From assembly GCA_034620365.1 (NCBI GenBank), contig JAQGEQ010000192.1:2661001-2725000 (forward strand): a stretch of DNA of 64,000 nucleotides. Direction: 5' to 3'. The notes beneath the pieces are model-generated. The model ran no database searches and was not told where the DNA came from. It saw only the letters and a program-made list of their open reading frames with translations. Below are positions 9,536 through 53,915 of the stretch, piece after piece. Source of the DNA: Pegea sp. RAD2-039. Lineage: Eukaryota > Chordata > Thaliacea > Salpida > Salpidae. The translations under genes and the position numbers were made by a program. Position 1 is the stretch's first letter. Each line of letters begins with the position of its first letter.

Positions 9536-11021
9536 TCAACTAAACCATGATACACCAACATGATAGCAAAAATGATGTTTTTTGCACCAATAACATTTTC
9601 CTCGTAGTCTTTTAGCTGTAAATTGAAAAATGTTTTAAAACTTAAATTCAAACTTTAAATAATTTTGAAATTCTTTTTAATTCCTATCGAGTAATTTTAA
9701 GTAAAAAGAAATAAATCTTACTTGAAAATCGTTTACACTTTACTCTGCACATACTTGTATGGCAAGAAGTTCTTCTAATTGAACGCTTTGACCTACTTTT
9801 TAAGTTCATCATTTTTAACAAGCCATCATGTTTGATCTTTTCTACTTTATGGCATTTAATGACTGGATTCTATAAAAACAATTTTTTTATAAACAGCATA
9901 AATGAACATTATCAATTTAAATTTGTATTAGTCATGAAATTATCAGATATTTTGTTATTTAACTTGGACGTTTTTGGCCTTGAGTCAGGACTTAAACTGT
10001 ACAGATCTATAAATGAACTTTAGTATATCATTCTTGGATCTTAATCTTTACTTAAAGTTGCATCTGTTCATTTCTACAACCTTCTATCTCTTATTTTCTC
10101 TTCGGTTTTGTAAAGAAAACTTTAATTAAAAATGAATTTGTAATTTCAACTGTAATTTGTAACTCATCTCTTTAATGTTTGCTTCCTAGTAAAGTTTAGA
10201 TTTTTTAAATGATAATATATTATCAATTATACATCTTGAGTGCTTGAAAGCACAAATGTGTAGAGTTATAATAAGATATTTTAAAATAAGAAGTTTTTTA
10301 AGTTAAAATAGACAAGTTAGAAAATAAAAAAGTACTAAACGCGTTTGAAGGAGTGTTTCACAGACCCACTTATCTCAATCAGTATAATAGAATAAAGGAG
10401 TAGAATGAGAAGAATAGGAAGATTTTATTTTTTTGACTATTTTCTTTGCTTCTCTATTTTCAGTTTTAATGTTTAATAAACATTTAAAAATCTCATTCTG
10501 TTTGAAAAATAGAGTCAACAAAAAAGATTAAAAACTTCTAATTTAATAACTTATACTGTTAGAGAGTTAGTGTACAACAAACATTTCTTACCGCCAGACA
10601 ATCAGGGTACTGAACTGAAACGAAATAGTTGTTAGAAATTTAAGCTATTTTATTAAAGAATCACCTTTACACGAAGGCAGGGGAAAGTCCCATTTTGAAG
10701 TATTCTGATTACATGTTAGAAGTAATTGACCAATCAAAACTGTTCCAGGCATGCAATTGAATTTACATGTGGAACCATCACTAGAACATCTCACTGTTGC
10801 ATACTCAGGTAAAGATGGTAACTTACAACCTGTAGTTTTGAAGTATTCAATTGAGTTTATTCAAGCAATAAGGGTTTAGTAATCTTGTGTATCTTTGACT
10901 TAAACCCCAAATTTGTTATTATTTTTAATTGATCTAATTAGAAAATTAGATAAAAATACTTACAATCAACTGACTTTGTTTCACTGATAACTACGAGTAA
11001 AAGAATTATAAGAAAATTCAT
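9536..11021 (-). CDS. Secreted sushi-domain, furin-type cysteine-rich peptide precursor
   Basis: Five exons on the minus strand: 10964-11021, 10665-10829, 10592-10614, 9722-9869, 9536-9615. All phases fit and the total is 474 nt, 157 aa. Exon 1 is a signal peptide (MNFLIILLLVVIS). Exon 2 (165 nt, phase 1-1) is a sushi/CCP domain with the expected Cys pattern and a Trp before the last Cys. Exon 3 is a 23-nt microexon ending in PDCLA. Exon 4 carries a linker, the furin-type site RSKR and the first three mature cysteines (CHTSMCRVKC). Exon 5 adds the last three (CYWCKKHHFC). The mature part is about 46 residues, basic, spaced C-x4-C-x3-C-x11-C-x2-C-x5-C. It shares the sushi and microexon with the 33/39-kb genes and RSKR with the 15/20-kb genes. 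The secreted role is inferred (defence, toxin-like or signalling). No named family is recognised. Confidence 0.8.
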
Positions 11022-11096
11022 TGCTATGCTTCTGATATAAAAACGATAATTTAGCAAAACAATTAGCTTCAAGTGAACAGCATCACCAGCTAAACT

Positions 11097-11104
11097 TATT
11101 TATA
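11097..11104 (-). promoter_or_regulatory. TATA box of the 10-kb peptide gene
   Basis: On the minus strand TATAAATAAG lies about 80 bp before the start codon. The same core TATAAATAAG occurs before the 15/20-kb peptide genes and in the orphan promoter at 21.28 kb, which supports it as a real core promoter. Confidence 0.55.
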
Positions 11105-12340
11105 CCCTGAAAGTTAAAAAAGAATTTATGCAGATGCTTTTAAATGATATTAACTTATATGACTTAGTAAATATTATTTTAAAATGTTAAAAAATTATGA
11201 TAAAAACAGATAAAGTGATTGATGTAAGTGCATTTTAGTTTAGGCTTCATAAAAACTTATTGTTCAGTTGTTATGAGTTAATTGTAGTACTTGACTTTAC
11301 AAGGTTTTGGTTTAAGCTTGCTTGTTTTGTATCTGCGTTGTTTACATAAAACAAATTCAGTTTTTACAGAAAACTTTATGTTTGAAGATTTTAGAATGTG
11401 ATGTTAAAAGCAACAAACTGATTGTTTTCAAGTTTTATGTAAACTAAGTAAAAAAATATATAATTTAAAGCAATAATTATAATGGTATAATTATTTTCGA
11501 CAACAATTTTTTTGTAATTTATAAAATTTGTTTTGAAATGAACACATTTTATTGTTGGAAACTGATAATGACAAAATCTTGATTATATATCCAATTAATG
11601 ACTATATTGTAAAATTTCAACTGAGGTAGTTTTTCTTTTAAAACAACCTACCAAAATTCGATGTAATTTCAAACTATCAACGCCTCATAACCGTTATAGT
11701 TGTCTTGCAATAATCAAATTTCAATTTTTCTTACAGTTGGCTTTCTTTTTGATTATCATAGCTTCAATTGTAAAAATAAAATTGTAAATAGTTGATAAAA
11801 GAAATGAAAGTATTTAGCAAAACTTATTCTGAAATAAAAAAATAGAATAAAAACAACCTTTAAGAAATGTAGAAATTAGTAAATTTGTAATTAAAAAAGT
11901 AGTATTTAGAAGTCAGAAAAGTATCTAAAAAGCTTCTTATGAAGGAAATTGAAACGAAAATGATGTTTTAAAAGTGTTTTAGTTTATAAAACATTAATTT
12001 CTATTTAAAAAAGCAAAAATTTTAAGATTTTTTTAGCCAAAAGTTTATTCAAACAAAGTACTTGCTAATATTATTTTAAAAAAATTGAAAGTAAAGATTA
12101 TCTTAAAGATTAATCTTTATCACATTTACTAGTTTAAGCGCAGAATATTACTTTAGTTTGATAGGATGATAACTTTATTTTAAGACATAAACATCAAGCT
12201 AAAATACCTTGTTGGAAAAAGGATTGTAATTTTTTAACTTTGGTTGCCTTAACCGAAAAGAAAAGCTTTTCAAAATCAACCAAATATAAAATTCCAAGAT
12301 TAATTCTCAAAAAGTCACAAATTTTTAACTAGATAAAAAA
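11105..12340. other. AT-rich intergenic
   Basis: No gene, RNA or repeat is recognised between the promoter of the minus-strand peptide gene and the first tRNA. Confidence 0.4.
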
Positions 12341-12412
12341 TGAGCCCGACGTGATTTGAACACGCAACCTTCTGATCTGGAGTCAGACGCGCTACCGTTG
12401 CGCCACAGGCCC
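12341..12412 (-). tRNA. tRNA-Trp (CCA)
   Basis: The minus strand folds as a cloverleaf. The acceptor arm is GGGCCTG/CGGGCTC, box A is TGGCGCAACGG, the anticodon loop is CTCCAGA with anticodon CCA, box B is GGTTCAAATC in the animal tRNA-Trp context GTGTTCAAATCAC, and the discriminator is A. No intron is present. A run of six T follows directly (12335-12340 on the plus strand as A), serving as the Pol III terminator. Confidence 0.96.
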
Positions 12413-12649
12413 TTATATTTGTGCTATCAAAACATATATTAAATATATTAAAAACAAGTTTGTATCTATACTTAATACTATTTATATTAGAAACAGTAAA
12501 AAAAACAAAATACTGAATATATTTATCATTTATCTAAGATTGATGATTACTCTAGCTGGTTCTATATTTTGTAATTTAGTTTTTGTAATATACAATAAAT
12601 GTTCAATATATTTCACGAATATTCATCGGTTTATCTTTTTTTCTCAGAA

Positions 12650-12741
12650 ATTAAAGAGATATTATTCGTGAGAATGTATGTTAACGAGAAGGGCTCTTTT
12701 CAGGCACCCTCCTTTGCGTTTATTGTAATAAAAAATAAATT
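12650..12741 (+). mobile_element. LINE 3'-end fragment
   Basis: Only the last about 90 bp of the CR1-group LINE 3' UTR is present: GTGAGAATGTATGTTAACGAG, the GGCACCCTCCTT segment and the TTATTGTAATAAAA tail. The 5' arm of the stem-loop has decayed. This is an old, heavily 5'-truncated insertion. Confidence 0.8.
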
Positions 12742-13254
12742 AATTAATCGTAAACTTATTTAATTTTTTTTCTAAGAACATAACAACAAATTTAGATGAA
12801 AGTTCTAGCCACATTAATTTAAATTCCATTTGAAGATCAAAAATTTGATCAGAAGAACTTTTTCCAGCGGTAGTATCATATCTTGATATATCTGAGAAAC
12901 CTGTGAAAATCTATTTTATTGAAAATATTGATGCTGGTGGTCAAAGATCCTGAAGACTCGCATGCTTTTAGCAGCCCCCTACAAAATTAATTCAAATGAA
13001 ACTTTTTTAAAAACTTTAAAAAAATTAATTCTTGAAATTTGTGTTGTGGTTGAAATGAACTTGTTTTGATCTCACTGATTAAAACTGAATAACAGGTAAA
13101 GAGGTTAACTATCAATTTAACGTTCAAAAAAATATTATCTACAAAACAATTTTTAAATCTCGTCATGGTCAAATATTATTACCAAAATATTTTTTTAACA
13201 CAAAGCTTGAACTCGGCCATTGGAATGTCAAGAAAAACTTAACGAAAAATAGAG

Positions 13255-13326
13255 TGAGCCCGACGTGATTTGAACACGCAACCTTCTGATCTGGAGTCAG
13301 ACGCGCTACCGTTGCGCCACAGGCCC
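13255..13326 (-). tRNA. tRNA-Trp (CCA), second identical copy
   Basis: Identical over all 72 nt to the tRNA at 12341-12412, same strand, 914 bp away, with anticodon CCA. It is followed on the minus strand by a TTTTT terminator after a short spacer. The flanks do not match those of the first copy, so only the tRNA has stayed identical, by selection or by a short duplication/conversion. Confidence 0.96.
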
Positions 13327-14219
13327 ACATAACTTTTTTCAAATATTATATTTAATTATTTGTCCTTACATAATATAGATACTTAAGAATTACTTAATTT
13401 TAATTTGTTTATCTGTACAATTTTTTCCTAATGTATTATAATGGTTATTCAGAAAATAACACTTGATTTTTTATGAAAGATATTAGACTTTTCCTGATAA
13501 GCATTCTTAAAGATGTAAATAAGTACAAACAAGTTTTTAAGAGCAAGTAAGAACATCGTTTTAAGAGTTTTTTCTTCTTATTTAAACTAAAAAATTTCAA
13601 TAGTTTTTAATTTTTATCAATTAATTTTAATTTAAAGTACAAGAAGTTCAGCTGCCTTAAACATTTTAAAATGAAAGAAAGAGGATCAACATTTGGAAGG
13701 ATTAATTTTTAATAAACATTTTTTTAGAACTTTTAAAATAATTTTGATCGGTTTTTTTATGTTCATGTTTGTTAAAGAGATATTATAGATGAAATAAACT
13801 TTTTGAAAAATCTGCTAAATATCACTTAAATCGATTTTCACTGATATAAAAAATGCTTTAGAGTTATTCATTTAAAATACTAAAACAATTGAAGAAATCA
13901 CATATTTGTATAAGTTTGTATATCAATAAGTTAGCCTAATATTGAATTAATTACTTTTAAATGAGTTTCACATACGTTTAATCTTCCTTATATACAGTTT
14001 TTAATGAATAAATTTTGTCAATGTTTAAATATAATTTTTACTTAAGAAAAGACAATGATATCATTGAACTACTTTCTCATTTTCTATGGGACATGAGAAA
14101 TTTAGAAAGTGAGTATCCACATTACTTTAATCATCGCTAACATCATGTCATAAGACAGACAAAAATAACTGAAAAACTTACAAATTTTTTTCAACTCATA
14201 AAATCTTATGTAAATAAAG
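13327..14219. other. AT-rich intergenic
   Basis: Nothing recognisable. A duplicated segment starts close to 14220. Confidence 0.4.
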
Positions 14220-14956
14220 AACAGTTTATCGATATGACATATAAACTACTAAACCAACAAACTCTATTTGACTAGGTTGATATTTAATGTTTTGACAGAA
14301 ATTAAAACATTGACTTTAGAGTAAATCTTTTAAGTATCATTAAAAGATCTTAAATAAGCCACCCACTTGAAGCTCAAATATCAAACTCTAAATTCCTAAT
14401 TGCCCAACTAATTGCCATTTGTCTTTCAATTAATTACATTAGAACTTCTTTTTGTTGTTATAAAAAGTTATAAGTGTTCAATTCTTATTTTAAATATAAA
14501 CTTAATATAACTATATAAGATAACTATATAACATAAGTAAATGTAAGTCTATGTATGAGTGGCATGTAGTTTTGCAACAAATAGTTTTGTATTCAAATTT
14601 TTCTAAATTTTAATTGTAAAACAGAAAATTAGCTGTTTCCTGTGTAATCTTGGAAAATAAAGCTCTGCTAAAAATTCCTTACTTTCAAACTCAAACAATT
14701 GAACTTATAGTATCAATTTATTTATTAAATTCTAAGGAACTGTTTCAAAAATTTCTTATATTTACATTTGAAATTAAATTTGATAATCAAAATGAAATAA
14801 CATTTCTAATCAATTTGGAAAATAATTGAGATAAAAATTAATGAGAAAAGGTTTTCTGGTTTAGTTTTTGTAGACACAACCATAAAAGGAATAAAGACAA
14901 AGTTGATAAATCTTCTGCGGTTTACATGTTTGTCATTACGTCTGTCTTTTCGCATA

Positions 14957-14964
14957 TATATAAA
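14957..14964 (+). promoter_or_regulatory. TATA box of the 15-kb peptide gene
   Basis: TATATAAA within CGCATATATATAAATAAG lies 78 bp before the start codon. The duplicate at 19503 has exactly the same spacing, and a third copy of this promoter lies at 21284. Confidence 0.7.
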
Positions 14965-15034
14965 TAAGTAAGTAGAATTGATTTTATTATAACAGTTATA
15001 TAGTGAACTACAAGACTCAAATACTTTAAGAAAA

Positions 15035-15772
15035 ATGAGTTTTCGACTTTTTATAATAATTTTGGCAATTGCTACTGTTGTCAATACGAAATCAGTTTTA
15101 AGTAAGAGCAAAATTTATTGCTGATATTCTAAAATTCTAATCTAATAGTATAAAGAAAAATAAAATAATAATCTTTCATAATTGATATTATTTCACGTTT
15201 AAATAATAAAGATAATTTTTGAATAATAGTAAATAGTTTTAATGTTTCTTTTCATATTATAATCTTTAAATAATCTTAGATTCTAACAAATGGCGAATAA
15301 TGGAGAAGAAAGAAGCACAAACTGAAAACTTTCGGCCAGAATTTCTAAAAATCAATGATGTTAATAATTTAGTTCCTGAAGAAAACTTTGACTTGAAGTT
15401 ACGAAGTAAAAGATCAACAACTGGCAAAAATCCTGTTAAATGTTACATAGAATTTTGTCATAACCGATGCTCAGCATTTTCAAGTAAGATTTCTGCTTTT
15501 AACTAATATCTTTTTCATTTACTTTAATTATCAAAGAAAAAACATTTGATTTTACTTTTTATAAAAGTTTGTAAGAATTTACTGGCAGATAAAAACGGTT
15601 TCTTATTTAGTAATAAGATTTAATAATTTGATTTGCTGTTGAACAATTAGTTACCTTATATTACAAACGAAATATATATTTGTAATCTTTTACAGGAAAA
15701 CACAATCTTAGACGAAACTGCAAAGTTTGCAAAAGTCATAAAGCATGTAAACGAGGATATAGTTATTTCTAA
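15035..15772 (+). CDS. Furin-type cysteine-rich cationic peptide precursor, copy 1
   Basis: Three exons: 15035-15101, 15280-15483, 15696-15772 (348 nt, 115 aa), all phase 1 junctions with GTAAG donors. Exon 1 is a signal peptide (MSFRLFIIILAIATVVNTKS). Exon 2 holds an acidic propeptide that ends in a furin-type site (LRSKR) and the first half of the mature peptide (CYIEFCHNRC). Exon 3 holds the second half (CKVCKSHKAC) and the end GYSYF. The mature peptide is about 48 residues and strongly basic, with six Cys spaced C-x4-C-x3-C-x12-C-x2-C-x5-C. Unlike the 10-kb gene there is no sushi exon. The design resembles antimicrobial or venom-type precursors, but no known family is recognised and function is inferred only. 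Poly(A) hexamers follow at 15852 and 15961. Confidence 0.82.
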
Positions 15773-16600
15773 TCTTTCTTGTCTGTGATTATATGGATGC
15801 AGGCATCTGTAAATGATTGGAATATTTTTTCAGTTTCCATTAACTTTTTATAATAAATAATTTATTTAGTGACTGTCTTTTTTATTCTCATTCCTTTTTT
15901 ATTCATATATCAGTAATTGTGTTATTTATTAGTACTTAATTTGAATTGTACAATCTACGAAATAAAATCTTCTAAGTTACTGTTGATATGATTTAATTAA
16001 GGTGTTTATAAAAGCAGAACTTAGCATATTTGAAATAAATTGGTTTTAAATGTAAATGTTTCTTATGAGTAAAGAATCAGAATCAATAAAAATGATTATT
16101 TGTGTAAAACGTGAAATCTTCCTATCAATTCATTTAAGTTAATCATTTGAAATATGGATGATAATTTATAAGGAACATATTTTGATAAAGTAGGTTTTTA
16201 GATTGACTCCTTGAAACGTTTTTAGTCGTTCTTAATCAAGAATTGTAAACTAGATACTATAAAAAGCAATTAAAATTGATATTGAAACATATTTGAAGTT
16301 GGTGTTCGAACAGTTCGCAATTAAAATATGATTTTAGCAACTTGATAAAAAACATGATTAGAAATGTTTGAATTTTAGAAGTTAAATTAAATAACTTTGA
16401 ATGAGAGCTTCTGCGGTTCATCATTCTTTTAAAATTTGTTTGATTATTTTTCGGAAACCGATATTTGTTTTTTCAAACCAAAACTGCTTTGCTTAATATA
16501 CACATCAAAAATTTTGTAAGATTTCTGACAATTAATTTAGTTTAAGTGATGATTAGAATTAAAAATGAATTCAAATTTCTATTTTGTAAATAATTGCATT

Positions 16601-18559
16601 TGCAATTACATTATAAAAACATCATAAGCAAATATTTATTCTTAATTAATTTATAATATTATTTTTATTCAGTCTAAATGACATAAATGCAAAAATTATT
16701 TTATATTCTTAATCAAAAGATTAAAAATCGAATATTCGAAGTTATTTTTTATATTTGAGATTCAATTATCTCTTCTTAAATAAGCTGATTAAAGATAATA
16801 TAAAAGAAATTTGACAAAATAACTGATATAAATAATATCAATAACATTCTTTTAATAAATGAAAATATCAATATAACCAATTCAATCTTGCAAAATTAAA
16901 TCATTGTCAAATCCTGCAAGACATTTAACTTAAATATATATTTTTTTCTTAACATATTTTAGTTTAAGCAAAGATACGAACTTAATTTTTATTGGCTGTG
17001 ATAATCAAAATTCGATAAACTAAATTTCATCTTTCAAGAAAATTTTCTTTTTACTGTATAAGTAGTTTAATGCGAAAAATAATCGAACATTAAAGGAAGA
17101 GTTGCAAAACTAAGATTACAGCAGAGCTGTAAAAATTGACTTGTAGAAGGTAAGCACCACCAGAAATGTTGTTATATTGCAAATAATTTATGAAAATTTG
17201 TTTAATTTACGAACGTTAAGCATTTCAACCTTATTCTAGATAATTTTTATTATTATTTGTTGTAAAGAAAAACTAGAAAATTTTACTTTATGCAGTTTTT
17301 TTTTACCTTTTGTCTGATTAAATAAATAGGAGTTAAAAAATATTATTTAAATAACTCATAGCAGCATAATTAAATGTGTAAGTGACTTATTTCAAAATAA
17401 AACATGGTTCAGCAATAAATAATCTTTAAAAGTTATGAAGTAAAAAAAACAAGATTTAAGTTTTTAATGATTAAATAAAAGATAGATAATGTAATTTTGA
17501 TAATAATTATTATTAATTACTTAATAACATCAATATAGTTTGTAATTTTTTTTTCTGAAGTTGTCAATTCATAAATTTTTATTGAAAATCTTTTTTAAAA
17601 ACTGGTTGAGGTCTTATTGGAAATAGTGAAACTTTAATTATTTTAACTGAAGAATCCATGATGACTTAAAATAAATAAAAATAATCTTTGTTGAAGTTAA
17701 TCTGGGAATAAAATATTCAGTTTGTGTAAAATTAAGCTAAATAACTTTATAATAAAAACACGGAAACAATTAAAACTAATTCTAGCTGCTCTACATAATT
17801 ATTATTTGCACCTTATATTAGCTAATACTCACTAATTAGCGGATTTCTTGCTGCAAGATTTCAAGAAAACTCAAATTAGACAGTTACTAGACATGGTACT
17901 GTTTAACTATTTAAACTATTTACATGTATTACACGTTTAAAATTCAATTTAATAAACGCACCATATTAGAATAGGTTTGTAAATGTGCTTTGCTATGATA
18001 TGTTTTTTTTGTAACAGTAAAACAGTTAATATGTAAAATATTTTCGACAGTTAATTATAATTTTTCACTTTTGATGTGATACAAAAGTGATATAATCATT
18101 CTAGTAGGTTCTGAAGACCTGATTTTCTATAGCTTCTTAACAATATCTCTCTTTTACTTTATTTATTGTCATCTAATTTTGAAAATTATTAAAGATTTCC
18201 GTTTAAAACACAAAATGTGATAAGCAATTTGAAAGCCAATTTATGTCATATAGTTCAATTTAAGTAATAAAATTGTAAGTTCATAGCTTTAAGTGCAGTG
18301 TTTCTAAATGAATAATTTCAAATAAAAAAATCATCAATAAAAGTGGTGAGATTTATTCTAAATAGATAAAAAACATATCATTTATTAAATAACAAAGTAA
18401 TATTCCATATTAGTCTTTGTTTTATAAAGACTTAACAATTTTGAATTTATGAACTATTTCTGACTCTTTATAGTTTTGCCATAATCAAATATGTAAAACC
18501 ATTAAATATCTAAGAAAGTTAAGCTCATAAATTCTTAAATAAATAAAAAAACAACTTGT
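16601..18559. other. AT-rich intergenic spacer between the duplicates
   Basis: No gene or clear repeat is seen. Confidence 0.4.
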
Positions 18560-19580: not shown

Positions 19581-20312
19581 ATGAGTTTTCGACTTTTTAT
19601 AATAATTTTGGCAATTGCTACTGTTGTCAATACGAAATCAGTTTTAAGTAAGAGCAAAATTTATTGCTGATATTATAAAATTCTAATCTAATAGTATAAA
19701 GAAAAGTAAAATAATAATCTTTTATAATTATTATTATTTCACGTTTAAATATTATAAATAATTATTAAATTATAGTAAAAAGTTTTAATGTTTCTTTTCA
19801 TATTATAATCTTCAAATAATCTTAGATTTTAACAAATGGCGAATAATGGAGAAGAAAGAAGCACAAACTGAAAACTTTCGGCCAGAATTTCTAAAAATCA
19901 ATGATGTTAATAATTTAGTTCCTGAAGAAAACTTTGACTTGAAGTTACGAAGTAAAAGATCAACAACTAGAAGAAATAATATTAAATGTTACATAGAGTT
20001 TTGTCATAACCGATGCTCAGTGTTTCCAAGTAAGATTTGTAATTAATATCTTTTTTCATTTATTTTGATTATCAAAGAAAAAACATTTGATTTTACTTTT
20101 AATAAAAGATGTATGAATTTACTGGCAGATAAAAACGATTTATTATTTAATAATAAGATTTAATAATTTGATTTGCTGTTGAACAATTAGTTATCTTATT
20201 ATACAAACGAAATATATATTTGTAATCTTTTACAGGAAAACACAATCTTAGACGAAACTGCAAAGTTTGCAAAATTCATAAAGCATGTAAACAAGGATAT
20301 AGTTATTTCTAA
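19581..20312 (+). CDS. Furin-type cysteine-rich cationic peptide precursor, copy 2
   Basis: Three exons: 19581-19647, 19826-20029, 20236-20312 (348 nt, 115 aa), the same sizes and phases as the gene at 15035. The signal peptide is identical and the propeptide differs at one residue, while the roughly 48-residue mature part after LRSKR differs at about eight. The changes cluster just after the cleavage site (RRNNIKC in place of GKNPVKC), around Cys3 and in the last loop. All six Cys are kept (CYIEFCHNRC, CKVCKIHKAC). The AATAAA at 20501 is shared, while the nearer hexamer of copy 1 is altered. Role as for copy 1: secreted basic peptide, function unproven. Confidence 0.82.
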
Positions 20313-20745: not shown

Positions 20746-21204
20746 TTGGCAAAATATCGAAATCTAGTTCAAAACTTGTACAGGTAATTACTGAATATGT
20801 TAAAAATTTCTTTAAAGATATAGGTTAACTTTGTTTGACTTTTGAAACAATGAATACTTTTTGTCAAACAGCTTAACAAACAGTATTAGGTTAATAAAAG
20901 TTATTTCAGACACTATTTCAAACATTTGCTTTCAATACAATATAAATTTAAACAAGGTTTAAGCATTATTTAAACAATACAAGCTCCTATACACCTAGCA
21001 GTAAAAGTATTTTTTGGGAATAGGTCATTTTTAGTAAACTCTAAAATACTTAAATTTAAATACTTTGTGTTTAAAAACTTTTCAAGTTTGTTAGTTATGC
21101 AATTATTTACTTAAACAGTTAAGAAATCAAACAGTTTGTCGTGAGTTTATCAATTAACTGATATATATTATACAATTTTTCTTTCAAATGTTCTTCTTTA
21201 GTCA
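20746..21204. other. AT-rich intergenic
   Basis: Nothing recognisable between the end of the duplicated block and the orphan promoter copy. Confidence 0.4.
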
Positions 21205-21345
21205 CCGCCATACAAAGAATAAAGATAATATTGATCCATCTATTGTAGTGTAGTATTTGTCATTACGTCTATCCTTTAGCATTTATATAAATAAGCAGCT
21301 AAACTTGGTTTTATCATAGTATCTATATAGTGAATTATACGACTA
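21205..21345 (+). promoter_or_regulatory. Orphan third copy of the peptide-gene promoter
   Basis: The block carries the landmarks of the 15/20-kb promoters in the same order: a CATA-rich box, TTTGTCATTACGTCT, CTTT.GCAT, TATATAAATAAG (21284-21295), a TATAGTGAA..TAC block and ACGACTAAA. No signal-peptide exon follows. The homology stops shortly before the LINE region. It is the remnant of a third, lost member of the peptide array. Confidence 0.7.
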
Positions 21346-21797
21346 AAGTTGTTATTTAATGCTGCAAAGAATTTTGTTGAAACCGATGTTTTTCAAATAA
21401 GAGTTTTGTTATTGAATAATTTGTTCTTAATTAGATAAATTTTATATTTATAAAGCCAAATATCTCCATTTTGGAAATATTTAATAAAAATATTAAAAGA
21501 AAATATTTAATATATTTTTAAAATATTTAATAAAAATGTGAAAAAATTTACCAAGAAAATTAGATTTTAACTCCTTTGTAATATTAATATTTATTTGATT
21601 TAATATTAAACAATTTATTTTCTATAAAAATATTCTATTTGAATAAGAAAATATTTCTATTTGAATAAGGAAGTGAATTGTTTATTATATATATATTATA
21701 TTTTGTGGCTGGTGACAGTAAAAATCTTTTATAAATCTTTGGTGGATACACATTTATTAACCTTGTATACTTTGGTGGGAGTTACTAAAAATCTATC

Positions 21798-26573: not shown

Positions 26574-29500
26574 TTAGGCGCTAAACGAGGGGTTTCCAAA
26601 TCCACATTCTTTTTGTAACTCGTTAATTTCAATCAATAAATCCTCACATTCTAAACCAAGTTTCGAAGCATATTTAAAACATTGCTCAGACTCAAGCTTG
26701 CGTTTAGTTTTTAAAGTGACTAAAGTCAGGTATGCCCAAACCATAGCATTAGTGTTGTTAAGAACATTTGCTTCAGCTAGAGCATCTTCAGCTTCACTTA
26801 GTTCATTCAGCCGATAACAAGCGGTTCCAACACCTAACCATGTGAGGCAAGTAGGCTGTCTTCTACAAGCCATTAAAAATACCTCTTTTGCTTTTAAATA
26901 TTCTTCTTTATCCAGATAAATCTCACCAAGTCTTAGTAGTATGGTATGCATTTTTGGAGGATCATTTACAAATGAAATTGTTCTTTCATAATAATCTTGT
27001 GTAGCTTCCTGATCACCCAGTTCGTAAGACAAATGTCCACAAATCGCCCAAGCTTCTGGATTTTCAACATCTATTTCAATTGCTCTTTCAATTGATTCTT
27101 TAGAGGCATTAAAGTTTTTTTGAATCATCTGAAGACGAGCTAATAAGATATGGTATCCAGAACTTGGTCCACGAAGTAATAGTTGACGAGCAAGAGCTAG
27201 TTCTGTAAAATGACTAGCATAACGTTCTAACAACCAATCAGCAGCCTTCATAAAGATACTATGTTTAAGGATGTGAGATTCTTCTTCTTCTTCATTTATT
27301 ACTTTCCGATCTGAGCAATTAGAAAACGGTTCATCAGAAACACATGAATCATCTTTTGCAGATGTATTCTTACTCATGTGAACACTACTAGATTGTTTGG
27401 TTGAAGTTTTTACTTCAGCCTTTGGTTTACTGTTTCGTGATAGAAGAGTGAGACTTGATGCTGACTTTGTCATTCTTTTTGATAACCCTTCAGTCTCGTT
27501 GATTGTTCCATTTTCCTCCTTTTTCACTTCTTCAGGAATATTAATCAAACCATCAGAAGTTGTGCAACATGTTGACAAAGCAATGCGATTAGCTTCCAGA
27601 AAAGAATGTTCAAGTAGAATCTGATTATCAGTTATCTTATAAAACAAGCCAATCATAGTCCAAGCTAGTATTGCTTGGTTTTCATTTGTAGAAATGCTCA
27701 CAGCTTTTTCAAACATAATTTCTGCTTCTTGAAAACCAGATTCGATGGTGCAAACGATAGCGTACATGATAAGAGCTTCAAGAAAATCTTGTCTAATTGA
27801 AATTGCTTCTTTAAAACATTCTTTTGACTTTATGGTGTTTCCATTTCTAAAATGGAAAACCCCATAATCATACCAACTAATAGGATCTTCTTTCGTTCTT
27901 AAAATTCTTTCTTTATAATAAGAAGCTGCGATTTCAAAGTCACCGTTATCAGCTGCTTCTTCAGCAAATATTTTTAATTGACAGACAGTGATATGTGGTA
28001 AGGTCACATTTGCTTCTTCTTCAGTTGTAGTGAGAAACTTTCCGATGCAAATATGCATCTCATCAATAAGATAAACATAAAGTTCAGTCAGAAATTGTTG
28101 AAGTGCTTCTTGTGATGTAAACACTGAAGTTTTTAGGAACTTTTCGCGCACAATCTTCACAATTGAATGCTTTAGTTGTTCTTTGAAAGCAAAATATTTA
28201 CCAGAAGTATTCAGAACGTAGTGAAGTTGTTTCTTTCGTTTGATTTGTTCTTCAACACATTCATCAAAAGTGTTCTCAATGATGTTTTTACCAAATAAGT
28301 TTTGAAATTCATCCAAAATAAGGTGAGATATAGAAGAAATTTGTGAATGAAAATCACTAACTGCTTGATTAGCTCCTCCAATCTTCATCTTCAGTACAGG
28401 ACGAGGCGGGATCAACTGAGATACTAACTCAACCAGCTCATCTGGTTGTTTTCTTGGTATCAAAGATCGGTGTAAAGTAAACTGGATATAGATATAAGTT
28501 TTAGCTTCAGAATAAGCTAAAGAATCAGTAGGACTTCCTAAAACTATTATATCTGCATCCAAATGTTCTTTGCCTTCTTTCCAAGCTGTGCTTCGTTTAT
28601 TAGTTGGTCCTTTACTTCGTTGCTGATTAGAAGTAGCAGCCCCTTTTGAAATTTGGTTGCCTGCACGAATAATCTCTTCTGCTATTAGTGTCTTTCTCAA
28701 AGTTTTCTTCTCCATTTCAATTTCACTGTATGGATAAACACGGAACGCTCCTGAGACAGAAGCAACTCCTGGATAGAGTAAAGGACTAAAATCAACATAA
28801 CAAACTCCATGATAGGACATCATTGTCGGGCCATCATCGTCAGTATGCTGCTGGCTTTTATCTTTCTTCCCTCCACCAGAGGCTTTAGGGTTGCTAGTAA
28901 CTCTGATTATCTCCACCGGTAAGAATCTACTGCTCTTTATATTGTTACGAAAAGTGGTTTTTGTTTCAGGATCAAAATAAAAACGTTTTTCAACATCCCA
29001 TGTCACACGATTTTTTTCGTTTTCTGCTTCTCGACAAAACATTTGATCTTTAACATCTCCTGTTTCTTTTATTGGAGCAGGTTTCTTCAAATAAGAATAA
29101 GGAATAAACTGAGCATCCGGAGCTGACGAGTTGATATTGTTCCACTTCATTGGCTTTTTTTGAAGCTCTTTATCATTTGCAAGCTTAAATGTTCCATTTT
29201 GAACCAGTGTAAAGCCTTCTTTATTACCAGCTTGAAGCATTGGGAAGCCAACCACATAATTGTAACTCTGATTAGGACTAGTCCAAGATTCTGGCAATGA
29301 ATAGGCGGATCCAACCTTAACAGTCATGAAATTTGTTTGACTTTTAATATCTTCATCAATTAAAGGTTGATTGACACTAATTCTTACGTCAACTTCTGGT
29401 TTCACTTCTTCATTACTATCTACAGGGGTGTTTGTAGTGTTTGCAGAGTAACCTATTCTTTCTGTTGTATTATTAGCTATATTTGAGGCTGTAGATTTAG

Positions 29501-29912
29501 ATTCAATTAATAATATAGGATATATCAGGTAACTTTGATCATACTGTGTTTCTGTTCCATGTAGTATTGGGAAAATATCTATAGTGCATTGACCAAGAAG
29601 AACAACTTTTTCTTCTTTTTGTTTTTTTTCTTTTGGCAACACTTCAATGAAAGTCAGTACTAATGGTTTTGAAGCAATATCATCAACTGTAGTTTTTCCA
29701 CCTTCTTCTGTTAAACTGCAGTCGATATGAGTTGTATAATTGTACTCTGCAGGGCTGTCAATACTTGATTCAACTCTAGAGCTTTCTCCAATAATTCGTC
29801 CATCAAATTCAGCTTTTACATATGAGACATTAAGTTCATTTTTTGTGCCTCTGATATGCCTTGCTCTGATGATATTAATTTGAATAGTTTCACTTGTTCT
29901 TACACCTTCCAT
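26574..29912 (-). CDS. CFAP70: Cilia- and flagella-associated protein 70 (intronless)
   Basis: A single 1,112-aa frame, close to human CFAP70 (about 1,120 aa). CFAP70 (TTC18) is an axonemal protein at the outer dynein arm base. The N-terminal part has family words (TFIEVLPKEKKQKEEK, SYHGVCYV, LLYPGV, PPRP.L, SGKYFAFKEQLKH). The C-terminal half is a TPR array (ERTISFV, CLTWLGVG, EDALAEANVLN) ending in GFGNPSF, the family terminus. The Met at 29912 was chosen because it aligns with the human start. The frame stays open for 22 more residues to a Met at 29978. No intron interrupts 3.3 kb, unlike INTS3 and the GH9-like gene here and unlike vertebrate CFAP70. The frame is intact, so the gene is functional by appearance. 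Confidence 0.95.
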   Translation of the reverse strand: MEGVRTSETIQINIIRARHIRGTKNELNVSYVKAEFDGRIIGESSRVESSIDSPAEYNYTTHIDCSLTEEGGKTTVDDIASKPLVLTFIEVLPKEKKQKEEKVVLLGQCTIDIFPILHGTETQYDQSYLIYPILLIESKSTASNIANNTTERIGYSANTTNTPVDSNEEVKPEVDVRISVNQPLIDEDIKSQTNFMTVKVGSAYSLPESWTSPNQSYNYVVGFPMLQAGNKEGFTLVQNGTFKLANDKELQKKPMKWNNINSSAPDAQFIPYSYLKKPAPIKETGDVKDQMFCREAENEKNRVTWDVEKRFYFDPETKTTFRNNIKSSRFLPVEIIRVTSNPKASGGGKKDKSQQHTDDDGPTMMSYHGVCYVDFSPLLYPGVASVSGAFRVYPYSEIEMEKKTLRKTLIAEEIIRAGNQISKGAATSNQQRSKGPTNKRSTAWKEGKEHLDADIIVLGSPTDSLAYSEAKTYIYIQFTLHRSLIPRKQPDELVELVSQLIPPRPVLKMKIGGANQAVSDFHSQISSISHLILDEFQNLFGKNIIENTFDECVEEQIKRKKQLHYVLNTSGKYFAFKEQLKHSIVKIVREKFLKTSVFTSQEALQQFLTELYVYLIDEMHICIGKFLTTTEEEANVTLPHITVCQLKIFAEEAADNGDFEIAASYYKERILRTKEDPISWYDYGVFHFRNGNTIKSKECFKEAISIRQDFLEALIMYAIVCTIESGFQEAEIMFEKAVSISTNENQAILAWTMIGLFYKITDNQILLEHSFLEANRIALSTCCTTSDGLINIPEEVKKEENGTINETEGLSKRMTKSASSLTLLSRNSKPKAEVKTSTKQSSSVHMSKNTSAKDDSCVSDEPFSNCSDRKVINEEEEESHILKHSIFMKAADWLLERYASHFTELALARQLLLRGPSSGYHILLARLQMIQKNFNASKESIERAIEIDVENPEAWAICGHLSYELGDQEATQDYYERTISFVNDPPKMHTILLRLGEIYLDKEEYLKAKEVFLMACRRQPTCLTWLGVGTACYRLNELSEAEDALAEANVLNNTNAMVWAYLTLVTLKTKRKLESEQCFKYASKLGLECEDLLIEINELQKECGFGNPSFSA

Positions 29913-29978
29913 GTTAAATCCTTGATCTAGCAATGAAATATTATTACCAAAAACAATTTCCTTGTATAAAAGTCTCAC

Positions 29979-32719: not shown

Positions 32720-32821
32720 ACAAGCTGCTTTGATCTAGAACATCAGAATATTTCTGTGAGACACAAGTCAATAATCTTCCTTTAGAGTGTTTTAAATGAG
32801 AAGAGAGTAAAGAAGATTAAA

Positions 32822-34258
32822 ATGAAAATCATTATTATAACGTTTATTTTCATGATATCATCTGCATTTGGTAAGTAAAAAAAGTGACTAGTTGCTGTTG
32901 AAACTAATAAAAAGTTGAAATTATTTATTAATTTTTATAGGAAAACAATTCATTAGTTTTCTGTTTCAATACCAACCAGTTTTGATTTAAACTGTTTTAT
33001 TTTTGAGAAAAATGTAAAACTATGTATAATATAAGTTGCTAATTAAAACAAAGTGAATGGTTGAGCAGGTTAAATTAGATTTTAAAAATCAGTTTTTAAA
33101 CCGCTAAGTTCATTTATAAAAATATTATCAACTTATTCTGTGAGATCTTTTATTGCTTCTAACAACTTCAAATTTATATAAACTAATTTGATTAAACTTA
33201 CAGCAAAGCAGTGTGAGCTGATAACACCGCGAAAATATTCTCAGATGAGTTGTGCAGATAACTCTTGTACTTTTACTTGCCCAACATTTTCCCAACTTAT
33301 TGGTCCCAATAACCTTACTTGTGACACTGCTACTGGTGAATGGAGTGATGATGCGCCTTTTTGTGATGGTCAGTTTTATATTTCAAATTATTACTAAATA
33401 AATTAGCAGCTTTAATAACTTGTATAATCTATAAATAACTCATACTTCATAAAATTAGTTTGAATTTTATGTTAGTAAATTTTGATTTATTAGATGGTTG
33501 TGTTTCCAAATCATTAATGTAAAAATGATAATAGAGTAGCAATGATCATTTTTATCTTTAATACTCTTCATTTTTTCTTTCAGTTTTTCCTGATCAATGT
33601 CAACAAGTGAGTACAATTGAAGCCTTAAACGATTCTCTGCTTTTATAATTTTAATAAAAAAAATTAAGATGATTAAAAATTTATTTTAACATTAAACTAG
33701 TCATCTTTCGATTTCGATGTTTCAGGTAATCGACGGAAAGCGAATATCTTGTAGATTATACACAAATGAAGAACTTGAGATACTTAACAAATTTTTTAAA
33801 AATTTTAAACCTTTTGATGATTCTGAAGCTCTGCTGGTAGTAAACTATACACTTTTACATAAAGCTAGGAAACCAGATTGTCACAGACACTACTGCAGTA
33901 CATTTTGCTGGCGACTTGCAAGTAAGTAGTCTTGTAAAATGGTTTTGTTAATTCAAATTTTATAAAGTTTAGTTTGATGGCTTTAAGTATCCATAATTAA
34001 GTACATGTTACTACAAGGTTCATAGCTCTCAGATTCAGCTAATAAAACCTCTGTCATAACGAAATCATTTCAATCTACTACATGAGATAGTATTACCTGA
34101 AGTTTTGATAACATTTTCTACTCAAATAGGAATATTTGATCAATTAACTTCAAATTTAATTTTTACAAACAGATCGCAGACGACGACGAATATGTAAGAA
34201 GTGCAAAAGAACTGAATTGAAAAACGTTTGTGTAAGAGCAAACACACTCTTTGGTTAA
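32822..34258 (+). CDS. Secreted sushi-domain cysteine-rich protein, copy 1
   Basis: Five exons: 32822-32870, 33204-33368, 33584-33606, 33726-33921, 34173-34258 (519 nt, 172 aa), all phases consistent. Exon 1 is a signal peptide (MKIIIITFIFMISSAF). Exon 2 is a 165-nt phase 1-1 sushi domain (CELITPRKYSQMSC ... EWSDDAPFC). Exon 3 is a 23-nt microexon (VFPDQCQQ). Exon 4 adds a helical linker and three Cys (CHRHYCSTFC). Exon 5 has an Arg run (NRRRRRICKKCK) and the last Cys before NTLFG. The terminal module is spaced C-x4-C-x3-C-x11-C-x2-C-x8-C. Exon sizes 2 and 3 equal those of the 10-kb gene. No RSKR is seen, so processing may differ. Extracellular binding or defence is inferred. Confidence 0.8.
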
Positions 34259-35945
34259 CAAGAAATTAGAAGCCCGTGAAGAAAACATTTATTTTGATAA
34301 GATTTTTGAATTGATTTTCAATGTCTATCGTTGATTTAGATTTATAAACTTTTTTTTAATATCACATGTAAAAATTATTTGATAAAATGTATTAAAATCT
34401 TGATATGGTGCAAAACATGTAATTATAGAAAGTCTATCTTTCAAAACAATCTGGACAACAAATATCTAACTCAGCTGTTTTTAGCAAACTTTCCTATCTC
34501 GTTTCATTTGGTTTGTCAAAATATTTTTGAATAATGCTAAGATCGCTAAATATATTTTCATAAATGCTTAAAGAGGTTTCAATTATCTTCAATCAAAATC
34601 ATCATGGTTAAAGATACCTTTAATTTTTTTTACTACGCCACCTATCGAGAGCAGAATGTATCTTTTCCGTTTATGGTAAAATAACGACACTGGTTTGTGC
34701 TTACTGTTTGATAATCAAAGATTACGGATTATGTCCAGATAGAATATTCACAATCTGCTCACCCCAAAGTCACTGCTCGAGGTCAATGAGGGTTGTCATT
34801 GAAGATTAGATCTAAAGAGCGGGGACAGTTCATCTATCGCTATTTTTCACTGAATTTAAAACCAATGAGCATGTCAGAGAGTAGTGTGTTAGCAAATATA
34901 CACATCTAAAAGCTCTATAGAGGTAGTGTCACAGTTTTGCTTATGATCCAGGGTGTGAGTTGTCTTTGCTGTCGAAGTGAAGATGATAGCAGCAACCGGC
35001 AGCAAATAAAACTCTGATCTTTTTGAAATGATTTAATTTTAAAACTTGTTAAATACCTTTTGAAAAAATTGATTTAAGGACTTTAACTGAAACCTCTTAA
35101 TAAGTTTAAGTAAGTTCACTGTTTTATTTTTATCGTAACTATTAATAAAAACAGAAAAATCAAAATTTCAAAAATCGATTCAACTTGTATTAATGTTTTA
35201 AAGATTAAAAAGGATAGATTAAAGAAGATTAAAATCAATTTATGATTTGCAAAACATATCAAAAATAAATTTTACATTGGTCAAATAATATGAAAGTATT
35301 TTGGTTTTAAAATGATAAGTCGAACGCAAAAATTAACTAAAAGTTATTTTCAAATTTTAGTGATAGAGTAATTATAGTTTTATAAAAAAAAGTTTTTAGA
35401 ATAGGCTGCTGAAGAAATTTAGTTTAATTTTTCGCTGTCTGTTTATTCATATAATTTCTAGTACTTTCAACTTATATTTGCTTCTAAACTTATTAACTTT
35501 TATTGCTTCTAATTTACTCTATGTTGTTTTTATATATATCTAACTTTTTCATTATTTCATGATCTTTCAATAACTATTTCTAAAATCGTTAATTTATTTT
35601 TTGAATTGAAGTGTTAATAATTTGTTTAGTTTAGACCAACTTTTATTTACTTACTCTAGTTGCTCATTATTATATTTATTTAAAAATATGTTTTTTAATT
35701 TTCTTTGTTTCTTTATTGTAAGCTCTGTAAGAGCTTCTGTCTAAAACTTGTATCGTCATTTAATAAGGTTTTTGATAACTATGACATTAATCAAACTTTC
35801 GCTGCAAGAGTTTAAGACTTTTTAAAAATCGATCAGGGCTTTTATTTTGTTATCATTATTCATAAGAGTTATGAAAATACACATTGTTTGTTTGATCTTA
35901 AACGATCGATAGTTTTTTGTTACATAAATCTAGTTTTTAGCTTTT
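33990..35945 (+). repeat. Large inverted repeat, left arm
   Basis: The reverse complement of this segment is found at about 40930-42892 with high identity. It starts in intron 4 of the 33-kb sushi gene, includes exon 5 and runs through a GC-richer block (about 34620-35010) into intergenic DNA. Confidence 0.85.
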
Positions 35946-38219
35946 GTGGTGAAGAACACGATTTATTAACTCTAAATATAAAAGTAATTTATTGAAACAG
36001 TTGTTGAGAATATAAGTCTTAATAGAAGTTTCTTCAGCAGCCAATCTTGTTATTCTCACAACTATTGAAAAATAAATATTGTTTAATTTGAATAACATCT
36101 TCTTTCTTAGTTGTATTAAAATTTAGCTTGCCTTTTATTTTGTTTAAAAAAGTACAATTAATCATGATATTATAATAGTTTGAAAAATCTTTTTAATCAC
36201 AAATTGTAAATGAAACTATGTTGAAATATTTAAACTTTTCAAAATCATTAAATTTTTGATGAAACATTTCGGCTAAAAAGTTTTATAAAGGTAAATATAT
36301 CAGAAGGAACACTTCTTGAAGATCAACTTTTGAGTTTGATGCATTGATTAAACAACGAATGACTTGAAGCACAATTCAAACTTGTTTTATCACTATTTTT
36401 AGAAACGTTAATGGACTAACCTTCAATTTAATGTGGTTAACCTAAAAGAAAATCTAGTTTTGAAAATTGCTTTTTAGAAGGATGGAAAGTGAATGAATAA
36501 GTCAAAAGTATAGTCGTTGACATACAATCTTCCAAAATAAATCTTTTGAGTTGTACATTTTGCTTAATATCCAAAAATGTTCTTGTATTTAGCAATTTTT
36601 ACCTTGAACTGAAATCTTAGAGACTTACAATTTTCATTTTTTTCAACGATTTTTAAGCGACTAATTCTACAATTATTGTAAATAAAATCTTTATGCTTCT
36701 GTCAGTTCATAGCTACTCAGTAATTTGTAAGTTATTGCTACTAAACAAAAGCAATTTTAACAAAATTGTGCGACAAGAAGTACATTTAATTGAATTCCTG
36801 AAATAACAGCTTTTTCTTAGGGGACTTCATATAAATAAAATCTTTTAAAATAAAGAGCAACGACAATTGGGAGTGCTAGATGCCTAAAATATAAACTCTA
36901 TCTCAAGAAAAGTCTTTTCGGTAAGTTGGATTCCTACAAGTTTAAGAATGTTTGTTGTCAATAGTAAATAGTCTATAGAAGTTAGTAGAAATAAAAGATG
37001 TAAATTTTTCTTATATTCTTAATCATTAAAAAACAAATAACTTTCAACTTTAATTTATTTTCTATCAGACAGCAAACTTTTTGATTTTATTCACGTATTT
37101 TAATTGACTAAATCGTTTGAGAGTTTATTTTTAGTTTTTATTCTAAAAAATTGCACCTTACAAGAAAAGCAAATAATTTCAGTATTCTTCTAACTCAGGA
37201 TTCACACATTACACTTTAAAAGAGGCGCTTTGTCGGTCACTAAGAAAATGAAAAGAGTTCTTTACTGGCTTGCAAGATCTACAACACTTATGTGCATAAT
37301 TGGTTAACGAGAAAGAGAAAAAAACTTAAAACTCTATCAAACTAGTTTTGCAGAAACTTATGTGAAGAAGTTTGAAACAATTTTGTCAATACTTGAAAAC
37401 AAATAAGGCTTTAATTGCATTGATTTATAAATAGTGAATTATTACATTACTTTATGAGAATGTTTGCATTTTTTCCAGATTAAAGTTAACCATTCAATTG
37501 CTTGACTTCAATTACTAGTGAAGTTTGTTTTCTTTTAAAACGTTTATGGTTGACCACAGGTTTTATTACTGGGTTGTTAATACTTATTTTACTACTACTA
37601 AATTATTATATTATAATTACACAAAATTTACCTTAAATTGATTTTTGCTTCTCAAAACTTAATTGTAGCTTTGTAACCTTATTTCGTTTGCTTTAAAATT
37701 CGTTTTCATCTGCTAAGTTGTCACATTTCCAAATTTAATAGCTCAAGTAATACAGAAAAATTGATTGAGTTAAAGATATAAGTTGTACTTATAGACTTAA
37801 ACACATTTATAGTTTGCTGTAAGTTCATATTTACTTTTATTTTAACATTTTCGAAGTTTTCTTGTGTTTATCTTGTAAAAAATTATAATTAGAAATAATT
37901 TTATTGGTGATAAATTTTAATTTATTTAGATTATATACTTATGTATAGAACCAATTAAGCTCCCGAAAATATTTATATTTTTCATTATTCACTTTTAGTG
38001 TTGTGAGCTGAAACTTATTTGATAGATGTTTTTGAAGCTTCTTAAACGAGTTTTAACTTTATTTCAATTTAATTATTAGTCTGATTTTATCTTACTCAAG
38101 ATTAACAACAGCAATACTTGTAAAATACAACTTTTGCTTATTCCAATATCAAAACTAATCTAACACTTGTAACTAGCGAGTTTATAATACAAATAAATTT
38201 TTATCTACAATATCTATAA
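35946..38219. other. AT-rich intergenic
   Basis: No exon, RNA or repeat is recognised. Confidence 0.4.
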
Positions 38220-38823
38220 ATTAGATTATAATAAAGTTTTGTTCGGCAAACTGACTATTTGTGAAAACTTTTCCGAAATTTTGTTGTTTGATAATGACTT
38301 AAAAACATCAAGATATTTATATCAGGGTATTACAAATAAAATTTCTAAAAATGAAAAAGAAATAGAAGTATAAGTAGAGGAGAACAATTTTAGTTTTTAT
38401 GTCACTAATTTGAAAGTCAAACTTACAGCTTTCAACAAAAGTCATATATTTTATTCAGATTTATTCTGTAACTACGAATTTGATTTTTTTTATATTTCTT
38501 AAGTTGAATACTTAGTGATAGTGTTTATCAACCTCTAATATTGATTTTATTACATGAATTTATTGATTTTATTGTCTGTAGGAACAACAAAAATTCAGCT
38601 TACTTAATTTGTTTTTGGAACTATTATTTTTGTGAAAAAGTTTTAAAAAGAGAAATTAAATGCAAAGGTTACCAAGAAAATTTCCTTAATTGACCTAATA
38701 TTGAGTTAAAATCTAATCCTAGAATAATTTGATGATGTCTAGGAAGTAATTTCAAATTTGAAACCGTCAATACTGAAAGTCAACTGATCATCAACAAAAT
38801 TGAAAAACATTTAGTGATAAAGA

Positions 38824-38831
38824 TATATAAG
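38824..38831 (+). promoter_or_regulatory. TATA box of the 39-kb sushi gene
   Basis: TATATAAG lies 85 bp before the start codon in the same context as in the 33-kb duplicate. Confidence 0.6.
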
Positions 38832-38908
38832 GCAAGCTGCTTTGATTTAGAACATCAGACAAATTCTGGAAGACACAAGTCAATAATCTTACTTTAGAGC
38901 GTCTTAAA

Positions 38909-40354
38909 ATGAAAATCATTATTATAAGTTTCATTTTCATTATATCATCTGCATTTGGTAAGTAAAAAAAGTGACTAGTTGCTGTTGAAACTAATAAAAA
39001 GTTGAAATTATTTATTAATTTTTATAGGAAAACAATTCATTAGTTTTCTGTTTCAATACCAACCAGTTTTGATTTAAACTGTTTTATTTTTGAGAAAAAT
39101 GTAAAACTATGTATAATATAAGTTGATAATTAAAACAAAGTGAATGGTTGAGCAGGTTAAATTAGATTTTAAAAATCAGTTTTTAAACCGCTAAGTTCAT
39201 TTATAAAAATATTATCAACTTATTCTGTGAGATCTTGTATTGCTTCTAACAACTTCAAACTTATATAAACTAATTTGATTAAACTTACAGCAAAGCAGTG
39301 TGAGCTGATAACACCGCGAAAATATTCTCATATGAGTTGTGCAGATAACTCTTGTACTTTTACTTGCCCATCATTTTCCCAACTTATTGGTCCTAGAATC
39401 ATTTCCTGTGACACTATTACTGGTGAATGGAGTGATGATGCGCCTTTTTGTGATGGTCAGTTTTATACTTCAAATTATTACTAAATAAATTAGCAGCTTT
39501 AATAACTTGTATAATCTATAAATAACTCATACTTCATAAAATTAGTTTGAATTTTATGTTAGTAAATTTTGATTTATTAGATGGTTGTGTATCCAAATCA
39601 TTAATGTAAAAATGATAATAAAGTAGTAATTATCATTTTTATCTTTAATACTCTTCATTTTTTTCTTTCAGTTTTTGATGACAAATGTTTTCAAGTGAGT
39701 ACAATTGAAGCTTTCAACGATTCTGTGCTTTAATAATTTTAATACAAAAAAATTAAAATGATTAAAAATCCATTGTAATATTAAACTAGTCATGTTTCGA
39801 TTTCGATGTTTCAGGTAGTCGACGGAAAGCGAGTAACTTGTAAATTATACACAAATGAAGAACTTGAAATACTTTACAAGTTTTTTGATAGATATAGGCC
39901 TTTTAATGATTCAGAAGTGTTGTATGCATTAATACAACTGAACAGCACTAAATTTATCAGGCCTAAATGTTACAATATATACTGTGGTACTCTGTGCTGG
40001 CGACTTCCAAGTAAGCAGTCTTGTAAAATGGTTTTGTTAATCAAAAATTATACAGTTTAGTTTGATGGCTTTAGGTATCCATATTTAAGTACATGTTACT
40101 ACAAAAATTATAGCTCTTTAGATTTAGTTAATAAAATCTCTGTCATAACAAAATCATTTCAATCTACTACATGAGATAGTATTACATAAAACTTTTGATA
40201 ACATTTTCTACTCAAAAAGGAATATTTGATCAATTAACTCCAAATTTAATATTTACAAACAGATCGCAGATTACGACGAATATGTATGACGTGCAAAAGA
40301 ACTGATTTGAAAAATGTCTGTTTAACATCATACACATTATTTAGGAATCACTAA
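38909..40354 (+). CDS. Secreted sushi-domain cysteine-rich protein, copy 2
   Basis: Five exons: 38909-38957, 39291-39455, 39672-39694, 39815-40010, 40263-40354 (525 nt, 174 aa), with the same sizes as the 33-kb gene except the last. The signal peptide is nearly the same (MKIIIISFIFIISSAF). The sushi domain keeps all Cys. The microexon reads VFDDKCFQ. Exon 4 keeps its start (YTNEELEIL) but diverges strongly towards the Cys module (CYNIYCGTLCWRLP). Exon 5 reads NRRLRRICMTCKRTDLKNVC and ends LFRNH. Cys spacing is unchanged. Introns are far more alike than exon 4. Confidence 0.8.

Positions 40355-44509: not shown

Positions 44510-53915
<9,406 letters not shown>

Follow-up and report, generated by a model that had tools for sequence, protein, structure and literature searches.

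Turgencins A and B, cationic antimicrobial peptides with six cysteines, have been described from the ascidian Synoicum turgens, with disulfides reported for C1-C6, C2-C5, and C3-C4 (PMC7024374). For exons of snake-venom families, a process of accelerated segment switch in exons (ASSET) has been described (PMC2711939). Here, we analyze a family of genes from the tunicate Pegea sp. RAD2-039, which encode putatively secreted precursors with a cationic six-cysteine module, joined in most copies to a sushi domain, and which we tentatively read as precursors of host-defence peptides. The window, namely the whole stretch of 64 kb that was analyzed, is JAQGEQ010000192.1:2,661,001-2,725,000 (forward strand) of the assembly GCA_034620365.1; this contig is C3, and positions without a contig name are those of the window. 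Family members were also searched for in the entire assembly (105.7 Mb, 387 contigs).

Gene family, shared module, and sushi exon

Gene models are predictions rebuilt exon by exon from genomic DNA. The splice model of g10 (9536-11021, minus strand, 157 residues, stop at 9536 taken from the sequence) consists of five exons: 11021-10964, 10829-10665 (sushi), 10614-10592 (microexon), 9869-9722 (RSKR and Cys1-3), and 9615-9536 (Cys4-6). The five-exon sushi gene g33 (32822-34258, plus strand, 172 residues; exons 32822-32870, 33204-33368 [sushi], 33584-33606 [microexon], 33726-33921, and 34173-34258) and its copy g39 (38909-40354, plus strand, 174 residues; exons 38909-38957, 39291-39455 [sushi], 39672-39694 [microexon], 39815-40010, and 40263-40354) are tandem duplicates (87.8% over 2,573 columns). 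The splice model of g15 (15035-15772, plus strand, 115 residues) has three exons without sushi, namely 15035-15101, 15280-15483 (RSKR and Cys1-3), and 15696-15772 (Cys4-6). Its tandem duplicate g20 (19581-20312, plus strand, 115 residues; exons 19581-19647, 19826-20029, and 20236-20312) was supported by splice model and window self-comparison (92.7% over 1,445 columns). Because g15/g20 and g33/g39 are tandem pairs, the five window genes count as three lineages, not as five independent witnesses.

All 16 introns of these genes have GT-AG borders, and each model forms one open reading frame with an ATG start and a hydrophobic N-terminus. In the sushi genes, the signal exon ends in phase 1 and is followed by the 165-nt sushi exon (phase 1-1), the 23-nt microexon (1-0), exon 4 with Cys1-3 (0-1), and the last exon with Cys4-6. 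In g15 and g20, the signal exon is followed by a 204-nt exon (1-1) with RSKR and Cys1-3 and by the last exon. A preliminary description of this stretch had proposed one terminal module with the spacing C-x4-C-x3-C-x(11,12)-C-x2-C-x(5,8)-C and a phase-1 intron between Cys3 and Cys4, and both features were recovered in 5/5 window genes. The shared 165-nt phase 1-1 sushi exon and 23-nt microexon, which it also reported, were present in all three window sushi genes, the microexon in phase 1-0, and the furin-type RSKR said to be common to two of the architectures was found in g10, g15, and g20.

We scanned both strands of the window with two splice-aware patterns: C4C3C followed by four codons and a phase-1 donor, and a phase-1 acceptor followed by C2C(5-8)C and a stop. 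There were exactly five hits for the first half-module and six for the second, namely the five genes and 42.7 kb on the minus strand; the means of 100 windows shuffled within 200-nt blocks were 0.0 and 0.02, respectively. The unspliced six-cysteine motif had zero occurrences in the six frames of the window.

Protein searches of the same genome revealed two further complete genes, one at C3:1943777-1945481 (plus strand), about 0.72 Mb from the window, and one on a different contig at C11:2265539-2263834 (minus strand). Both have the 165-nt sushi exon, the 23-nt microexon, the same phases, the spacing C4C3C11C2C5C, and a convertase-like RKRVKRR or KKRVIRR before Cys1. An orphan last exon (Cys4-6) at 42611-42696 (minus strand) represents a further g33-like copy. 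It lies within an inverted duplication (33985-35936 and 40931-42892, 94.8% identical), which carries this third g33-type last exon and could favour inversion or conversion within the cluster; the truncated copy stops at about 42892, at the start of a sequence like a long interspersed nuclear element (LINE). Another orphan last exon, detected by protein search from C3:2617355 onward, is located behind a LINE relic, as judged by eye. Thus, the preliminary count of five genes was exact for the window but fell short of the family, because two complete genes and two last-exon fragments had been missed. The set studied here comprises seven complete genes and two fragments, with the five-exon layout repeated in five sushi genes at three genomic places; these family counts are lower bounds, since the searches score best candidates only.

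In the alignment of the seven modules, six cysteines, one lysine, and one phenylalanine were invariant, and the phase-1 intron lies between Cys3 and Cys4 in all seven genes. When the cysteine columns were excluded, 29, 0, and 16 of 20,000 column shuffles attained the observed similarity between the three architecture groups; gaps in this test were placed on the real sequences, which gives the real score some advantage. The five sushi-gene modules were aligned by hhalign with the two sushi-less ones at 88% probability over 40 columns. The simplest reading of these sequence comparisons would be common descent of the module across the three architectures. The idea of one modular family linked through g10 is hence supported by the cysteine-fixed shuffles, by hhalign, and by the two genes elsewhere, which repeat the five-exon sushi layout with convertase-like sites and, as had been expected of related genes, show identical intron phases. 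Easy gain or loss of the symmetric sushi exon is also compatible with the phases: exon 2 of the sushi-less genes is 1-1, as would be left after loss of the 1-1 sushi exon and of the phase-0 intron that separates the microexon from exon 4. This suggests that the sushi-less form may have arisen by these two losses, or that the reverse gains took place.

The g10 sushi scored 18.6 bits in Pfam (PF00084), below the gathering cut-off of 20.7. At E ≤ 1, Pfam Sushi matched two of the seven precursors and four of the six exon sequences (best 3.3e-4), and g33 by itself was unmatched. Six cysteines and one tryptophan were invariant in all six aligned sushi exons, and the four corresponding to the sushi cysteines were assigned by reading the consensus. 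For the g33 sushi exon (33204-33368, plus strand; 165 nt, phase 1-1), AlphaFold2 with an alignment of five relatives gave a model with a mean predicted local distance difference test score (pLDDT) of 84.8. When this model was compared with PDB by Foldseek, nearly all of the best 50 of 281 matches were sushi-bearing chains, and the best values among these 50 were a probability of 1.00 and a template modelling (TM) score to query of 0.85, with every E value at or above 7.6e-3. For the first-ranked chain, 2yra, one listing gives the title of a zinc-finger structure and another that of Seizure 6-like protein. By sequence, a profile of five precursors matched complement receptors and a CUB-sushi protein in PDB. 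These predictions support that the exon adopts a sushi fold.

The search of Pfam and NCBIfam with the seven precursors at E ≤ 1 detected no cysteine-rich defence-peptide family (defensins, hepcidins, and others), although weak matches may be lost to the HMMER filters. The module profile matched 16 distinct PDB sequences at E ≤ 10 with no convincing family; these zinc-binding and ribosomal stretches were taken as chance matches, the best being a ribosomal protein with an E value of 0.034. Protein searches, which reach only relatives sharing short exact words, gave no match at E ≤ 10 among 813 candidates for the seven precursors and one match among 557 candidates for the three sushi precursors. 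The match, P0121 (E 3.4e-21), is encoded on a metagenome contig of 695 bases. It shares 43 of 54 sushi residues with g10, and its ends match read-through of the introns flanking the g10 sushi exon, so this contig probably derives from the genome of a relative and not from a transcript. A corresponding gene is probably present in a related species, seen through its sushi exon. One scan of viral contigs showed no relative of the family. The earlier statement that no named family has this layout was therefore borne out within Pfam, NCBIfam, and the protein searches made. A literature search by titles and abstract openings, with most subscription journals outside its reach, found no published precursor that combines sushi with a six-cysteine module.

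Divergence between tandem copies

The preliminary description had missed that exons of g33 and g39 diverged faster than their introns. Exons 1-5 differ at 4/49, 11/165, 7/23, 60/196, and 17/86 sites and introns 1-4 at 3/333, 5/215, 10/119, and 21/250; in an alternative alignment, intron 2 differed at 8/215 and exon 5 at 15/86 sites. The totals are 99/519 (19%) for exons versus 39/917 (4%) for introns (Fisher p about 6e-19), and each exon was more diverged than its neighbouring introns (p 0.006 to 4e-11). Exon 4 of g33 contains a hypervariable core (33828-33890, plus strand; residues 114-134), where 17 of 21 residues differ from g39 and the single cysteine is conserved. Within 40 nt from 33845, 24 sites differ, as compared with 8.4% in introns 3 and 4. 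Multiple changes are present in 25 of the first 158 codons, each time with an altered residue, and the single-change codons comprise 20 that alter the residue and 10 that are silent. The flanks differ at 78/537 (5') and 45/541 (3') sites, both above introns 1 and 2, which hints at a converted tract at these introns.

Two classes can be distinguished among the four g33-type last exons, with divergences of 19 to 22% between classes and of 4.7 and 7.0% within them. The 3' flanks of the two classes are only 7.6 to 8.6% apart, and the intron before these exons groups them differently from the exon classes. As for g15 and g20, the signal and pro part differ at 1/201 sites and the mature part at 12/144 (p about 1.7e-4).

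Since the synonymous divergence (dS) between g33 and g39 is also raised, at 0.278 and far above the intron divergence, simple positive selection is insufficient and was ruled out as the only cause. The pattern would be explained by introns homogenised through gene conversion with the exons kept apart by selection, or by segment switching; we prefer these two explanations and do not choose between them. Rapid exon-limited change of this kind would be consistent with an arms race against microbes.

Possible functions of the precursors

The net charge of the module or predicted mature part was +8 to +13 in all seven genes, and the N-terminal part was near-neutral or acidic (-5 to +4) in the five genes measured. 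A basic site, RSKR, RKRVKRR, or KKRVIRR, is present directly before Cys1 in five of the seven. In the alignment of the sushi genes, an extra cysteine pair, located in the microexon and early in exon 4, is complete in g10, g33, and g39 and entirely missing from the other two; this joint presence or absence fits a disulfide. The modules end in aromatic tails such as GRSWF, GYSYF, and TLF.

These charges and convertase-type sites, together with the repeated five-exon layout, the joint cysteine pair, the divergence of g33/g39 and g15/g20, the sushi fold, and the parallel with turgencins, point to host-defence (antimicrobial) peptide precursors, in which sushi would serve as a pro- or targeting domain. 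We give this function somewhat less than an even chance. The order of parts, as read from the sequence, is a hydrophobic N-terminus that would direct secretion, the sushi exon, the microexon, a linker, and the six-cysteine module, which a phase-1 intron divides. Cleavage by a furin-type protease would free a strongly cationic six-cysteine peptide from five of the seven precursors; three disulfides presumably hold this peptide, for which a nested hairpin is our guess. The freed peptide could then bind a membrane or a microbe. The genes g15 and g20 would encode a bare peptide form lacking sushi. In g33 and g39, which have no convertase-type site, the module would remain attached to the sushi domain and may act as a two-part binder. 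A broader proposal, which we regard as possible but doubtful, is a chordate defence system with sushi as a detachable guide of the six-cysteine peptide; most copies would lose the sushi by cleavage, one pair would keep it fused, and another would lack it, with venom-style exon-limited change.

Several points weigh against a defence function. The precursors are known from genomic sequence alone, and two of the seven (g33 and g39) have no convertase-type site before Cys1. Cysteine totals are odd in g10 and the two outside genes (15, 13, and 13), owing to one cysteine at the exon 1/2 junction, which may leave together with the signal peptide. The ratio of nonsynonymous divergence (dN) to dS is not clearly above 1 in g33/g39 (0.204 and 0.278), where silent exon sites are far above the intron level, nor in the mature part of g15/g20 (0.087 and 0.096), which is no more diverged than the introns (28/383; p 0.71). 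Homology with turgencins was rejected (hhalign probability 0.2% over 8 columns). Finally, the constancy of the propeptide and the aromatic motif at the C-terminus suit a signalling ligand as well.

Such a growth-factor- or hormone-like ligand would be secreted and released at the furin-type site, with receptor binding by the cystine-rich peptide and recognition through its aromatic tail (GRSWF, GYSYF, TLF). The convertase-type site in five of the seven genes, the phenylalanine near the C-terminus, constant in all seven modules, and the nearly unchanged signal and pro part of g15/g20 (1/201 sites) would agree with it. We nevertheless consider a ligand unlikely in view of the very high charge and the scarcity of acidic residues, the sequence variation among copies, and the lack of a relative from a named animal among the scored candidates. 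Reproductive or self/non-self recognition, in which sushi and the variable module would mediate recognition of gametes or tissues and diversification would separate variants, is quite improbable: the exon divergence of g33/g39 exceeds that of the introns as expected, and many recognition proteins contain sushi domains, but neither strong positive charge nor a convertase site is typical of such proteins. A structural or adhesive role in the tunic, mucus, or cuticle, with the basic cysteine-rich module binding acidic glycans, would account for the high charge and cysteine content; a short chain without repeats, a processing site in five of the seven, and exon-limited divergence, which is unusual for a structural protein, make this a poor candidate. 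That unrelated exons share their cysteine spacing by chance, or that the gene models are wrong, is scarcely credible, because the low Pfam score of the g10 sushi (18.6 versus 20.7 bits) and the use of genomic DNA alone for the models are set against identical exon lengths (165 and 23) and phases in two genes elsewhere, a splice-aware scan that matches only the family in the window, the cysteine-fixed shuffles, and the sushi fold.

If the defence function is true, one precursor in a tunicate would unite a cationic peptide with a recognition domain of the complement type, and the family would offer a compact example of exon-limited diversification outside venoms. The 165-nt sushi exon, the 23-nt microexon, and the phase-1 split module provide a search rule for other tunicates, where fast change may conceal the family from sequence search.

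Genomic neighbours and known systems

A promoter-like relic (21199-21347, plus strand) is 75% similar to the region upstream of g15 and g20; inspection by eye recognised no signal-peptide exon between this relic and the LINE of the window, whose first frame begins at about 21.8 kb. Just upstream of the LINE, a spliced leader is located at 21632 (21632-21669), with a shortened second copy at 21657. The sequence ATTCTATTTGAATAAG has 272 exact copies in the genome (reversed control, 0) and is the Ciona intestinalis spliced leader (PMC7986045). A tandem array of the leader with a period of about 199 nt at C4:1135044-1142217 likely represents spliced leader RNA genes. We examined 10 spliced-leader loci on C1 (seven distinct places), and sequence matching the window LINE was present in all 10; several had two tandem leaders a few bases apart. 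These observations suggest that LINE RNA may have been trans-spliced and re-inserted, repeatedly in succession. Larvacean house proteins had been considered and are not favoured, the spliced leader being of the Ciona type.

CFAP70 (26574-29978, minus strand), which adjoins the family, is a single open frame of 1,134 residues. Among the top word-sharing candidates scored (best 120 of 249 matches), its best named relatives are the tunicates Styela clava and Clavelina lepadiformis (43% each). These relatives and the spliced leader both indicate that the host is very probably a tunicate; a search of the assembly for COX1 gave no match. The metagenome protein P0001 is 91% identical, probably from a close relative in an environmental sample. 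Exons of glycosyl hydrolase family 9 (cellulase) lie at 45137-49647 and 50332-51510 (both minus strand), where five of six tested frames match PF00759, and a weak sushi-like stretch (E 0.91) is located upstream of them. Two tRNA genes (12341-12412 and 13255-13326, minus strand) form a local duplication, with the anticodon CCA (Trp) assigned by reading the sequence. A minisatellite at 6338-6664, beside Ints3-like exons, has copy offsets that are multiples of 19 nt, and its three minus-strand frames are all open across nearly the whole length.

As compared with known systems, the sushi exons of the family share with PF00084 the placement of four cysteines and one tryptophan, the single phase 1-1 exon, and a predicted fold matching solved sushi domains. 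They differ in having two extra invariant cysteines (six in total) and weak sequence scores, and each precursor carries only one sushi, fused to the cationic six-cysteine module. Hepcidin differs from the family in its eight cysteines and is not known to carry a sushi domain. The likeness with hepcidin-type precursors lies in the prepropeptide, the RX(K/R)R site, and the small cysteine-rich peptide (PMC3325200). As reported for ASSET, short exon segments are radically altered in secreted cysteine-rich proteins, and in g33/g39 the introns remain close; g33/g39 are, however, one tunicate pair with no venom link, which makes this a parallel and not membership (PMC2711939). Turgencins and the family modules are alike in being cationic, in six non-adjacent cysteines, in an equal Cys1-to-Cys3 span, in Cys4-x2-Cys5, and in their tunicate source (PMC7024374). 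The reported turgencin spacing is C-x3-C-x4-C-x(7,8)-C-x2-C-x3-C, whereas that of the family is C4C3C11-12C2C5-8C in all seven modules; moreover, the CXMAC and KKXGG motifs of turgencins are missing from the family modules, and the turgencin C-terminus is amidated (PMC7024374). By analogy, the family may work like turgencins, yet we do not class it as a turgencin.

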